Below, in pieces: positions 11,750-16,468 of a stretch of DNA of 63,366 nucleotides (positions are counted from its first letter, which is position 1; each line of letters begins with the position of its first letter). Source of the DNA: a virus. Below the pieces are notes generated by a model that did no database searches, was not told the DNA's origin, and saw only the letters and a list, made by a program, of their open reading frames with translations. Location of the stretch: the IMG/VR virus record IMGVR_UViG_3300042894_005834, positions 1 through 63,366 of that record. One strand, written 5' to 3'. A program made the translations under genes and the position numbers.

Positions 11750-12727
11750 TCACAGTCCCTTGTGATCTGCAATGATCTTTTTCAGAGCCGCATAAAGTTC
11801 GTCAAATTTTACTTCACCAAAACCATCTTCAATCATCATTTTACGAATTTCTGTTAGATTAAATTCTGGATTATAGTTTTGCAAAGTATAATCAATCTTC
11901 TTTAAGACTTGATACGACATATTAGGAGACTTAAGCTGCATCACAGAAAAGTTTGTGTGTATTGTATCGGCTTCATCAACTATACTTTGGAAAATCTTTA
12001 GCTTTGAACCATCTTCAACTTGTTTCTTACAGAAATCGATTATCTCTCCTGTTAGATACTCTTTCTCTTCTGCCAAAAAAGTCATCTTGTTGGAAATGGT
12101 TTTAAGGCCAACACCTTTAACACCGTCGATGTTGTCAGAAGGATCACCAGCTATAGCGCGTGCAACAGCAAAGTTGTTTGGATGAATTCCAAACTCTTCT
12201 AGAATCTTTTTTGTTGTTAGCACTTCATTTTGAATTGGTCGGAAAAGAACCGTTTTGTTATTACATAGCTGAATGAAATCTTTATCGGAGGATACAATTA
12301 CTTTATCCCAGTCTTTAAAATATTCGTGGTTACAAACAACAGCAATAAGATCGTCAGCTTCTATTTCCTTTTCTAGAAATTGGATTGTTGGCATACAATT
12401 AAGGTATTCCATTACCTTTAACTGTTGCCATACTTTGTTTTGAATTTCTTGGTCTTCGGTGAGGTTCTTTATGTCTCGATTAAGTCGAATAGGTTTACGA
12501 CCATCCTTATAAGTCTTTATAATTGTTTTTTTCTTACGACTTCCGCCTGGACCATCGTGACAAACAACAATGCAAGAAGGTTTAACTTCTCTAACCAATT
12601 TTTGCAAAGATTTCATGTATCCCTTGAGTCCACCAATTGGCTTTCCGTGTGTTGAGATACTTGGATCTACGATGTAGTTCCTTATGAAATTATTAAGAGA
12701 ATCTATAATCATTAACCGTTTTGTCAT
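11750..12727 (-). CDS. 5'-3' exonuclease / FEN-type RNase H, 325 aa
   Basis: Flap endonuclease superfamily (PolA 5'-nuclease, T4 RNase H), likely removing RNA primers. Visible: N-terminal MIIDSLN with Asp9, VVCHDGPGGSRKK, the acidic helix EIEADDLIAV, VSSDKDFIQL, and the helix-three-turn DNA-binding segment GDPSDNIDGVKGVGLKT. The polymerase gene here lacks any 5'-nuclease domain, so this protein supplies it in trans. AAGGAA precedes the ATG. A strong hairpin lies directly upstream (12745-12773). Confidence 0.92.
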   Translation of the reverse strand: MTKRLMIIDSLNNFIRNYIVDPSISTHGKPIGGLKGYMKSLQKLVREVKPSCIVVCHDGPGGSRKKKTIIKTYKDGRKPIRLNRDIKNLTEDQEIQNKVWQQLKVMEYLNCMPTIQFLEKEIEADDLIAVVCNHEYFKDWDKVIVSSDKDFIQLCNNKTVLFRPIQNEVLTTKKILEEFGIHPNNFAVARAIAGDPSDNIDGVKGVGLKTISNKMTFLAEEKEYLTGEIIDFCKKQVEDGSKLKIFQSIVDEADTIHTNFSVMQLKSPNMSYQVLKKIDYTLQNYNPEFNLTEIRKMMIEDGFGEVKFDELYAALKKIIADHKGL

Positions 12728-13004: not shown

Positions 13005-13409
13005 TTAAGCTGCAATAAACTCTGTCACAATAAACTTACCGTGATGATCTGTGCCGTTTCGCTCAAGAAAATAATCAGTAAGCTTGGATGGTTCTCCAAC
13101 CAGACCAATCATATCTCGATTACGAAGAATACAATTTTCTCCATTGTCATTAACATAAACAACTTTTCCTACTTCTGCTTTTTTCAATGCGTGTTGACAC
13201 AACAAGCAAGGCTTACCATTTTTATTTTCGCGAGCAGTTGGAGAAGAAGTATTATTAAATCTGTAAATAAAAATCTTACTACCTTTGGCTTTTTCTCCAA
13301 GCTTATCGAGTAGATCAATTTCTGCGTGCATGGAACACTTAAAAACAGATTTATTCCTAGAATATCTGCGCTTATTAACGCCATGTGCCAGTGGCTTTCC
13401 ACCTTTCAC
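13005..13409 (-). CDS. cytidine/deoxycytidylate deaminase-like zinc protein, 134 aa as read from GTG
   Basis: The zinc-deaminase core is visible: SMHAEIDLL (His zinc ligand, Glu proton shuttle) and KPCLLCQHAL (two Cys ligands), with an upstream strand GGKPLAHGVNKR and a downstream VVYVND. The likely reaction is deamination of a cytosine nucleotide or a modified base. The GTG at 13409 has no ribosome binding site, and protein-like sequence (IAEDLASQYRDETLQHQVVA) continues upstream in the same frame without a start codon. A good ATG with AGGAG lies at 13500, one frame away, so the gene is probably frameshifted at its 5' end. Confidence 0.72.
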   Translation of the reverse strand: MKGGKPLAHGVNKRRYSRNKSVFKCSMHAEIDLLDKLGEKAKGSKIFIYRFNNTSSPTARENKNGKPCLLCQHALKKAEVGKVVYVNDNGENCILRNRDMIGLVGEPSKLTDYFLERNGTDHHGKFIVTEFIAA

Positions 13410-13554: not shown

Positions 13555-13583
13555 ATCTTAACACACAGCCAGTGTTCTGTCAA
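13555..13583 (-). promoter_or_regulatory. sigma70-like promoter with extended -10
   Basis: Minus strand TTGACA (13578-13583), 17-nt spacer ending TGT, then TAAGAT (13555-13560). The -35 overlaps the last codons of the UvsX gene. It drives the deaminase-like gene with a leader of about 48 nt that contains an inverted repeat (GTCAGA...TCTGAC, 13525-13544). Confidence 0.75.
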
Positions 13584-14713
13584 GCAAGGTCTTCATCATC
13601 AGCATCAGTCGACTCTTCTTTTTCATAAAACTGTGAAGCCATACCTTCACGCTTATCAAATTTAAGAATTACTTCTTCATTAAGAAGATCAAAAACTCGT
13701 TGTCTAAACTTTGTTTCTTTCATCTTTTCTGCCCAATCAGCTGTGCGAAACTTCTCAGAAGAACCATCAGAATGTACCAGAGTATTCCAAGAACCTACTG
13801 TAAGACTAGATGAAGATTTAATAGCTTCAAATAGTGATTCGTCATCAAGAACACCAACACGATCAGCCCACATAATCTGGAACTCACAAGCACGACCTTG
13901 TGTGCCAAAGCGGGATTTTTCTAATCGTGCTTTTACTAATGAACCAATACGAAAGCCTTTGGAATCATTAACAAAACTATCTTTTGCTTTTGAGCCAGTC
14001 AGCCAGATACGCAAACTATAAGCATATGCTGGTGACTTTCCACCTGGAGTAAAGAACTTTTGAGATTGTGTCCAATACTTAGGATTACCGTCGCCACCAA
14101 TATTAAGCTTAAGCTGATTCAGGATCAATAGCGTCGAACGACTCTCTGCAATAGGGATTGTTAATTTTGAAAACCCCTTTGAAAGAATACGAGCTTTTAC
14201 TGCCATTGAAGATTGAGGATTAAAATCTCCTTCAACATCGGTAATGGTGGGGGTCATTGCTAATGAATCCCAGATAAACAAGAATCTAGAGCCACCATTT
14301 TTGATCAATTCTTCAATTTGTTCTAAAACTGCTTCTACTGAAACAGCTTGAATGTAAATAAGATTTTCTAGATCGCAACCAGCACTTTGTAGGAACTTAG
14401 GATCGATAGCTGATTCGCTATCAAAATATACTGGGACAATACCTTGTTTTTGTGCATTTGCAGCTACTTGAGCAGCAAGATAACTTTTTCCGGTTGCTTC
14501 TTCACCGGCAATTTCAGAAATTTTACCTACTGGTATGCCTGCTTTTTTACCACGACATACAATAGAATCTAACCATGTAGAACCAGTAGAAATCCATTCT
14601 TTTACTTCTGTAGGATTTTCTTCTGTTAGATCGTGAGCAACACTCATACCTGCTTTTTTATTTAGAAGAGTGCGCATTTCACCAATTGAAAGTTTTCCAG
14701 CCTTTAAAGTCAT
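13580..14713 (-). CDS. uvsX: UvsX/RecA-type recombinase, 377 aa
   Basis: Strand-exchange ATPase for recombination-dependent replication and repair. Walker A is GEEATGKS (70-77), preceded by STGSTWLDSIVCRG and PVGKISEIAG; Walker B is FLFIWD (144-149); FDSESAID and LLILNQLK match RecA-core blocks. The length (377) is near T4 UvsX (about 390). The C-terminus is acidic (TDADDEDLA), typical of RecA proteins. AGGAG precedes the ATG, just after the SSB terminator. Confidence 0.92.
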   Translation of the reverse strand: MTLKAGKLSIGEMRTLLNKKAGMSVAHDLTEENPTEVKEWISTGSTWLDSIVCRGKKAGIPVGKISEIAGEEATGKSYLAAQVAANAQKQGIVPVYFDSESAIDPKFLQSAGCDLENLIYIQAVSVEAVLEQIEELIKNGGSRFLFIWDSLAMTPTITDVEGDFNPQSSMAVKARILSKGFSKLTIPIAESRSTLLILNQLKLNIGGDGNPKYWTQSQKFFTPGGKSPAYAYSLRIWLTGSKAKDSFVNDSKGFRIGSLVKARLEKSRFGTQGRACEFQIMWADRVGVLDDESLFEAIKSSSSLTVGSWNTLVHSDGSSEKFRTADWAEKMKETKFRQRVFDLLNEEVILKFDKREGMASQFYEKEESTDADDEDLA

Positions 14714-14781: not shown

Positions 14782-15531
14782 TCAATCTCGAAGAGATTTA
14801 AGTGCCGCATCGACACTAGATAGCTCTTCAAATTTAGTAACACCTTCACTGTCATCTGGTGCTTCACCAGCTTCACCGCTGTTAAGAAATTGTTCTAGCA
14901 TAAGTTTAATTTCTTCAACTGGTCGGCGCTTATGTAGCTTATCAAAGTCAGGAATACGAGCAAGAATATCTTTACAAGATTCTGGATCCATATCCTTACA
15001 CATAGGACTAGAACGACGCTTTAGGACAAGCTTAGTTTCTGGGTATTTCTTTCCACCAGCTTTCTTACCATACTCTAGATCGATATCTACGCCTTCATCT
15101 AGGTCAGTGACGTCACCATATTCTGGATTAAGAACTGTCTCAATCAGGAATTGATAAGTTGTCTTGCTATAGCCCCAAATCTTGGGTCCATCTTTCTCAT
15201 CATTACGAATAAGAACTGGGGAGAAAAAGCGCTGCTTCTTGACCATCTTTGAAGCCAACTCACGCGATTCTTCATCTTTATCGTTGTAAAGCTTGCTAAC
15301 AAATTCACAGATTGGGCAGGCTTCTCCAAAATTTCCTTTTGGACAAAGGATGCTTTCTTTTCCAAATCCATAGTGGAAGAAGAAAGACTTAAAAGGATCT
15401 CCATCTGGTGTAGGAAGGATTCGGATTGTTTGAACTCCTTCTTGTGGCGACCAGAACTTAGCATTCTGTTGTTTGCCACCTCCCTTAAGAGTATCAAGTT
15501 TATTACGCATTTTTGAAATATCAATAGCCAT
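14782..15531 (-). CDS. gp32-like single-stranded DNA-binding protein, 249 aa
   Basis: Coats single-stranded DNA at the fork. The T4 gp32 layout is visible: basic N-terminal arm (MAIDISKMRNKLDTLKGG), OB-fold start (FWSPQEGVQTIRILP), zinc region with HYGF...CPKGNFGEACPICEF, and an acidic C-terminal tail ending in a short helix (SSVDAALKSLRD). The frame opens four codons earlier, but GGAG lies 7 nt before the ATG at 15531, so that start is chosen. It has its own promoter and terminator. Confidence 0.92.
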   Translation of the reverse strand: MAIDISKMRNKLDTLKGGGKQQNAKFWSPQEGVQTIRILPTPDGDPFKSFFFHYGFGKESILCPKGNFGEACPICEFVSKLYNDKDEESRELASKMVKKQRFFSPVLIRNDEKDGPKIWGYSKTTYQFLIETVLNPEYGDVTDLDEGVDIDLEYGKKAGGKKYPETKLVLKRRSSPMCKDMDPESCKDILARIPDFDKLHKRRPVEEIKLMLEQFLNSGEAGEAPDDSEGVTKFEELSSVDAALKSLRD

Positions 15532-15600
15532 TTTTTTCTCCATTACAGCCGCAATTGGCCGGGTTAATACACGGTCGGCGTTTATTCCGACCGCAAAGTG

Positions 15601-15629
15601 ATCTTAGCACACACCAGAATGCTTGTCAA
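15601..15629 (-). promoter_or_regulatory. sigma70-like promoter with extended -10 for SSB
   Basis: Minus strand TTGACA (15624-15629), 17-nt spacer ending TGC, then TAAGAT (15601-15606). The expected start leaves a leader of about 63 nt before the SSB ATG at 15531. The -35 overlaps the 3' end of the FtsZ/tubulin-like gene. Confidence 0.78.
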
Positions 15630-16468
15630 GCACTGAGATCGACATTTTGTAATATGTGTGTGCTAACTTCCATATAAGTATAATTATCTGTATACTCATT
15701 TTGATAGATTCCGAAACCTCCAGTAACATTTTCGGCTAATCTATCTTTAACTTGAATTTTAATTTTCTGCAAAAGCTTTCCATCTTTTTCAAGTTGAATC
15801 TTACTCATCGAGTAATAAAAGAATTTATTTGTTATATTATTTAAATTATAAAACAAAGATTCTTTGCCTGTTTTTGGATCTAGTGTTCCAAAAGTTGTTA
15901 TTTTATTTATGTCTAAAGTTTGTGGATTTGTTATCGTAACAGGTTCGATATGCTTAAAAACATTTATCATATGTATTGTCGACACTATTGCTTGATTGAT
16001 TTTTTGATGATAAACAGCAATCGGGGCTTCACCAATTATTTCTTCCATAGAAAGGTTGTCTACTAAATATAACTTATCAAACAAACCAGATCTTGCATAT
16101 TCTTGCAAGATATTAAATGTTATCTTTTCTTGTAGAAGTTTTTTATGCGATATCAGATTTAAATCTGGTCTAACATATAGTATTGATATTCTTGTATGTT
16201 TTATTTGCTCTAATATGGCTAAGGTAGCACCGGTTATATCAGAAGAACCAACTAGAACAAACAATACCTCATCTTCTAAGTCTTTAAAAAAGAGTTTTAA
16301 ATCCGGACACTTCTCTTCATATAATTCTGGCGATTTAAGATCTGGCAGACTTATCGAACGCTCTGATGCAGGTAAATTTACACCGATTTTATAAACGGTA
16401 TATTGTTCATACGATGAGAACAAATCAGCGATTCGATTTCCGCCATTTCCTAATCCGATTACATCCAT
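15626..16468 (-). CDS. FtsZ/tubulin-superfamily-like protein, 280 aa (remote)
   Basis: Not recognised as a named gene, but its layout parallels FtsZ/tubulin. Strand 1 with a Gly-rich turn: MDVIGLGNGGNRIADLF (5-12, like GxGGxGxN). Strand 4 and the T4-loop position: LFVLVGSSDITGATLAIL (69-86), where FtsZ has GGGTGTG. Then ISILYVRPD, a long helix LQEKITFNILQEYARSG, the strand LFDKLYLVDN, and a helix-7-like IAVYHQKINQAIVSTIHMIN with an Asn at 158. Residues 175-280 would be a second alpha/beta domain. The canonical T4 signature is degenerate, so GTP binding is uncertain. AAGGA before the ATG lies within the polymerase gene, which it overlaps by 10 nt. Confidence 0.6.
   Translation of the reverse strand: MDVIGLGNGGNRIADLFSSYEQYTVYKIGVNLPASERSISLPDLKSPELYEEKCPDLKLFFKDLEDEVLFVLVGSSDITGATLAILEQIKHTRISILYVRPDLNLISHKKLLQEKITFNILQEYARSGLFDKLYLVDNLSMEEIIGEAPIAVYHQKINQAIVSTIHMINVFKHIEPVTITNPQTLDINKITTFGTLDPKTGKESLFYNLNNITNKFFYYSMSKIQLEKDGKLLQKIKIQVKDRLAENVTGGFGIYQNEYTDNYTYMEVSTHILQNVDLSA

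Follow-up and report, generated by a model that had tools for sequence, protein, structure and literature searches.

The gene at 15626–16468 of the window (the whole stretch of viral DNA analysed here, 63,366 nucleotides long) encodes a protein, designated Z1, which on the evidence of two structure models almost certainly has the FtsZ/tubulin fold, apparently without the elements needed to hydrolyse GTP. We propose, with a probability of about one half, that Z1, a diverged and reduced protein of the FtsZ/tubulin superfamily, acts in phage DNA replication as a scaffold or regulator deficient in hydrolysis. It extends the tubulin superfamily by a variant invisible at the sequence level and does not constitute a new type of system; its clade is a large and widespread group of uncultured, marine T4-type phages. 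No description of Z1, or of the second FtsZ-like phage protein Z2 discussed below, was found in the literature covered, largely open-access journal papers. The features on which the analysis draws are collected in Table 1.

Table 1. Location of Z1, its structural and sequence features, its neighbours and Z2 (window positions unless a locus is named)
Feature	Position	Strand	Basis
Z1, 280 aa, predicted FtsZ/tubulin-fold protein	15626..16468	-	ORF; AlphaFold2; Foldseek PDB FtsZ E=1.3e-14
T1-like glycine loop, residues 5-12, GLGNGGNR (family GLGxAGCN)	16433..16456	-	column tallies, 68 sequences
T4-position loop, residues 71-83, VLVGSSDITGATL (family GxGxISGAxL)	16220..16258	-	in register with FtsZ T4 loop (hhalign)
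QEYARS motif, residues 122-127, end of H5	16088..16105	-	column tallies
Predicted core helix H7, residues 150-172, with N158 and HMINVF (166-171)	15953..16021	-	DSSP on model; column tallies
C-terminal domain, residues 190-270 (S7, S8, H9/H10, S9, S10; no H8)	15659..15901	-	two models
POL, family-A DNA polymerase ORF, 400 aa	16459..17661	-	PF00476 E=2.1e-12; 10 nt shared with Z1
SSB, gp32-type single-stranded DNA-binding protein	14782..15543	-	PF08804 E=5.9e-12; phrog_1192 6e-24
UvsX/RecA-like recombinase	13580..14713	-	PF00154 6.9e-32; phrog_97 6.1e-53
5'-3' exonuclease, replication cassette shared with Z1	11750..12727	-	PF02739 2e-23
Z2, FtsZ-like with intact GGGTGS and DxxD (contig IMGVR_UViG_3300025131_009739; further loci L112-L191)	L109:1027-2121		

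Predicted fold and sequence motifs of Z1

Sequence searches with the window Z1 against Pfam, PDB and NCBIfam gave no identification, and PHROG returned a non-significant match only. The tubulin/FtsZ profile PF00091 does not match the window protein; it matches three of 20 family members (best E=0.086), with no Z1 above the cut-off, and no tubulin passed the threshold in Pfam and PDB sequence searches. A profile comparison of the Z1 family with seven FtsZ sequences (hhalign) is weak (E=0.008), but between the T4 loop and the beginning of H7 the two stay in register. Since the sequence signal alone is insufficient, the homology of Z1 to tubulin rests on the predicted fold.

The AlphaFold2 model of the window Z1, built with a 20-sequence alignment, has a pLDDT of 89.7 and a pTM of 0.89; it shows both domains of the FtsZ/tubulin fold and a core helix H7 of 23 residues. 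FtsZ and TubZ make up the entire top 50 of its Foldseek matches in the PDB, with TMq values of 0.64–0.74 and identities of 12–18% (E=1.3e-14, a TM of about 0.72 and 15% identity for the best match). A second member, L017, which is 39% identical to the window Z1, was modelled from 48 sequences at a pLDDT of 92.5, with all five models above 91, and its top 50 PDB matches comprise FtsZ, TubZ and one microtubule chain. Both models contain an N-terminal GTPase-type domain, H7 and a C-terminal activation-type domain, and they match FtsZ over about 310 columns, the C-terminal domain included. The best structural match of the window Z1 in the viral library BFVD is A0A6J5RW92 (E=5.5e-13, TMq 0.77), and the PhuZ of phage Noxifer is matched at E=5e-6. 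The FtsZ/tubulin-like fold which an earlier note had suspected from the sequence is thus supported across both domains, including H7. The same note had named a plain Rossmann or other fold as what would refute it. Reading Z1 as a Rossmann-type protein unrelated to tubulin draws on TrkA_N (Rossmann) as the best Pfam signal among Z1 members (E=2.9e-5, with weak matches in 12 of the 20) and on the lack of above-threshold tubulins in the sequence searches; however, two high-confidence models resemble FtsZ throughout and no Rossmann enzyme occurs among the top 50 structural matches of either protein, so that this reading was rejected as very improbable.

By DSSP on the window model, with FtsZ element names assigned by us, the elements follow the order S1 (2–6), H1 (7–19), S2 (24–30), S3 (38–41), a short H3 (47–52), S4 (67–73), H4 (77–88), S5 (93–100), H5 (108–127), S6 (132–137), H6 (138–145), H7 (150–172), S7 (190–196), S8 (203–222), H9/H10 (223–243), S9 (249–257) and S10 (263–270). 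Helix H8, which in FtsZ occupies the interval between H7 and S7, is absent from both Z1 models, which otherwise have every element of the series from S1 to S10, and the window model stops about 10 residues past S10.

Conservation was read from 100 extracted Z1 proteins, some of them from overlapping or near-identical contigs, which form 75 clusters at 85% identity; 68 sequences were aligned. In this alignment of homologues, which the earlier note had proposed, the T1 glycines G5, G7 and G10 are invariant (68/68), followed by C11 in 64 sequences (Asn in the window) and N12 in 38 (Arg in the window). The GLGNGGNR segment, the T4-position loop VLVGSSDITGATL and Asn158 in the helix-7-like segment all lie at the residues the note had given. 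At the T4 position G74 is found in 59/68, G76 in 61/68 (Ser in the window), S79 in 54/68 and G80 in 52/68; the signature GGGTG[ST]G is absent, the window reading GSSDITGATL and the family GxGxISGA. Nearly invariant are the motifs QEYARS (Q122, Y124, R126 and S127 in all 68; complete in 96 of 100 Z1 proteins) and HMINVF (H166 and M167 in 67/68), and N158 of H7 is present in 65/68, D29 in 61/68, P101 of T5 in 64/68 and N138 at the T6 position in 65/68. No segment resembling T3 GAGxxP exists in the 68-sequence alignment, and the T7 catalytic acids (FtsZ NxDxxD) are not conserved, a DxxD past H7 being present in 14 of 100 proteins. The degenerate T4 loop noted earlier, and with it the idea of a catalytically dead protein, thus gain strength across the family, which has no conserved T7 DxxD, no T3 and no H8. 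The window Z1 is an outlier within its family, with C11 replaced by Asn, N12 by Arg, D29 by Gly, G76 by Ser and R84 by Ala; judged from these substitutions, the Z1 of this phage may no longer bind nucleotide, even if other members still do.

Compared with FtsZ, Z1 shares the two-domain fold, the core H7, the T1 glycines, the T4 position, Pro101 of T5, Asn138 of T6 and Asn158 of H7, but differs in its 12–18% identity and its length of about 280 residues, and it lacks the T4 GGGTGTG, T3 GAGxxP and T7 NxDxxD motifs, H8 and the C-terminal tail.

Genomic setting and distribution

The ORF recognised in the earlier note is confirmed on the minus strand (16468→15626); the plus strand of the same interval contains many stops. 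Z1 is a real gene, given the full-length family alignment, the number of its relatives and the excess of synonymous changes (12 synonymous against four non-synonymous codon differences) relative to its close relative L001. A single-protein query of IMG/VR retrieves 26 relatives and an alignment query at least 590; 20 members align over their full length at 35–42% identity, except for one near-identical locus, and Z1 is single-copy in all 14 genomes or contigs having a match. It was not found in 50,697 phage records queried with the window protein and with a second member, nor in 84,980 GTDB genomes scanned with one short pattern, a scan that is therefore not exhaustive.

In the window, POL, Z1, SSB, UvsX and the 5'-3' exonuclease lie on one strand, and the overlap with the polymerase gene and the SSB as next gene, both described in the earlier note, are borne out. 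The POL of the window is short; a search for an exonuclease domain found none, and motif C has HDA in place of the usual HDE. Between UvsX and the exonuclease, a candidate cytidine/dCMP deaminase-like ORF (13005–13409; HAE...PCLLC; PF00383 E=0.002, below the cut-off) recurs in several relatives.

Across the family, whose loci are not fully independent, a co-oriented POL precedes Z1 in 74 of the 77 loci whose upstream DNA is long enough to tell, and SSB follows it in 80 of the 81 with sufficient downstream DNA; this conserved synteny supports the tie to replication that the earlier note had suggested. Among the 74 loci, POL and Z1 overlap or lie within 30 nt in 37, are 42–579 nt apart in 27 and more than 1 kb apart in 10. 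The gaps of 42–579 nt usually hold one ORF of about 103 residues, PRA-PH/MazG-like by a weak match (E=0.005, below the cut-off). In the loci read, the immediate neighbours of Z1 are POL, this PRA-PH/MazG-like ORF, which is the commonest extra gene, and SSB; a TubZRC-type partition cassette was considered and rejected, as the intervening ORF is not an HTH TubR. Larger extra ORFs of 380–800 residues are inserted between POL and Z1 in five loci (L002, L051, L062, L082 and L083).

In sister phages that keep the replication cassette, the place of Z1 is taken by small ORFs or by a DnaQ-like exonuclease (E=3e-17). Z1 therefore fills a slot for replication accessories in its own lineage and is not a universal part of the replisome. 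In some of these phages the DnaQ-like exonuclease gene adjoins POL (L253:5295-6134). Two cultured relatives, Flavobacterium phage immuto and Microcystis phage Mel-JY01, were considered as carriers of Z1 and rejected: they share the terminase and SSB, other ORFs occupy the slot (two small ones in immuto), and a profile search found no Z1 anywhere in either. In Mel-JY01, a 428-residue protein precedes SSB (L106:6406-7692), the N-terminal half of which is common to Prevotella Lak and Alishewanella phages.

The T4-type affiliation is based on the portal, head, sheath, large terminase, gp32, UvsX, gp41 and gp46/47. A search of 11 related contigs and of the possibly incomplete 63-kb window record for a family-B DNA polymerase (gp43, PF00136) found none; Mel-JY01 has one. 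The terminase of phage immuto is among the closest cultured ones (44%), and Z2 occurs in three GTDB MAG contigs binned as Flavobacteriales, where a binning error is possible. By these sequence comparisons, the hosts of the Z1 phages are likely Bacteroidota.

Z2, a second FtsZ-like phage protein

Z2 is a further tubulin-superfamily protein that shares some genomes with Z1 but differs from it in being recognisable as FtsZ by sequence (hhalign E=1.9e-11; PDB FtsZ E=1.9e-9), with GGGTGS and [FY]D[ST]KDL intact in all 17 aligned members. The 165-kb contig of locus L035 carries a Z2 ORF of 364 residues that scores 27.6 bits with PF00091, below the cut-off of 33, which one Z2 member passes at 34.2 bits. 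Z2 is widespread, with at least 107 relatives in IMG/VR, on viral contigs of up to 281 kb, and none was found in the phage records. In L109 the gene preceding Z2 may encode a gp55-like late sigma factor (a weak match), and such a neighbour is seen in only five of 80 loci. The BFVD entry A0A6J5RW92 from an uncultured Caudovirales phage, named 'FtsZ Cell division GTPase', has 452 residues and 15% identity to Z1, and may belong to the Z2 type.

Z1 and Z2 occur together in G002, G010, G011, G012, G014 and G026 (the contig that carries Z1 locus L100), six genomes or contigs in all. Three contigs of 155–190 kb (G001, G003 and G004) have Z1 without Z2, and nine others have Z2 but no Z1; any of these contigs may be incomplete. 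Unless the three long Z1 contigs are incomplete, Z2 is not an obligatory partner of Z1.

Proposed role and comparison with known systems

The role proposed for Z1 draws on gene context, that is, on guilt by association. Z1 is encoded and probably co-expressed with the replisome genes in the order POL, Z1, SSB, UvsX; it would bind nucleotide weakly or not at all and would not hydrolyse GTP by the FtsZ mechanism. With the parts for GTP splitting apparently lost, it probably scaffolds or regulates rather than forming a normal dynamic filament, and may be a subunit for assembly or scaffolding by which replication proteins or replicating DNA are tethered or organised, for which the QEYARS and HMINVF surfaces would be docking sites. 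In phages with Z2, Z1 may co-assemble with Z2 filaments or cap them. An extended version, in which hydrolysis-dead Z1 and, in some members, an active Z2 would form heteromeric filaments or scaffolds that organise the replisome outside nucleus-forming jumbo phages, is offered tentatively and is on balance unlikely.

Other roles may be envisaged for the same fold. Z1 could be a decoy or cap for host FtsZ that adds to filament ends and blocks division during infection; the inhibition of FtsZ is known from other phages, the fold of Z1 is closest to bacterial FtsZ, and a subunit that has lost the T7 acids and H8 from one of its longitudinal faces would be one-sided. The strict confinement of Z1 to the replication cassette, an unusual site for host-takeover genes, speaks against such a decoy, which we regard as improbable. 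The overlap or near-adjacency with an exonuclease-less POL gene in half of the loci with a POL, together with the DnaQ-like exonuclease or small ORFs of sister phages in the same slot, would also suit a non-polymerising, nucleotide-binding accessory of POL or SSB (for processivity, dNTP sensing or regulation) that reuses the tubulin fold, but Z1 retains both domains of the fold in full, H7 included, an architecture whose normal use is longitudinal assembly, and this makes the accessory a rather poor prospect.

A dynamic filament of the PhuZ or TubZ kind that positions phage DNA would accord with the shared fold, the existence of these phage tubulins and the preservation of H7 and the T1 residues. 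Like PhuZ of the nucleus-forming jumbo phages (phiKZ PHIKZ039), Z1 is a phage-encoded protein of predicted tubulin fold with a structural match to the Noxifer homologue, but it occurs in T4-type genomes, at a fixed place by POL and SSB, and has neither the conserved T7 acids nor the T3 motif and H8. PhuZ polymerisation uses the C-terminal helix H11 and an acidic tail (PMC3678025), an extension absent from the Z1 model, and the profile comparison of Z1 with a single phiKZ PhuZ sequence is not significant (hhalign E=0.07 over 27 columns). The fold of Z1 also matches TubZ of plasmids and phages (4ei7, E=3.2e-13; 2xka, E=3.8e-12), from which it differs in being much shorter and in having no TubR-like HTH neighbour seen. 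A filament of this kind is accordingly a doubtful explanation, and the hydrolysis-deficient scaffold or regulator of replication is preferred.

Phage tubulins are considered a hallmark of nucleus-forming jumbo phages, with a handful elsewhere (PMC11835377), and PhuZ is missing from one third of known Chimalliviridae (PMC10299810). As the earlier search for phage tubulins used sequence HMMs, Z1 is not expected among its finds. Z1 represents a profile-invisible family of predicted tubulin fold, present at least 590 times among the viral contigs of IMG/VR, that is fixed in the replication operon of T4-type phages, and the sequence-recognisable FtsZ-like Z2 adds a second tubulin to some of its lineages. 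If the replication role is true, cytoskeleton-type folds would be far more widespread in phage DNA replication than thought, and tubulin folds could be retained without the GTPase apparatus.
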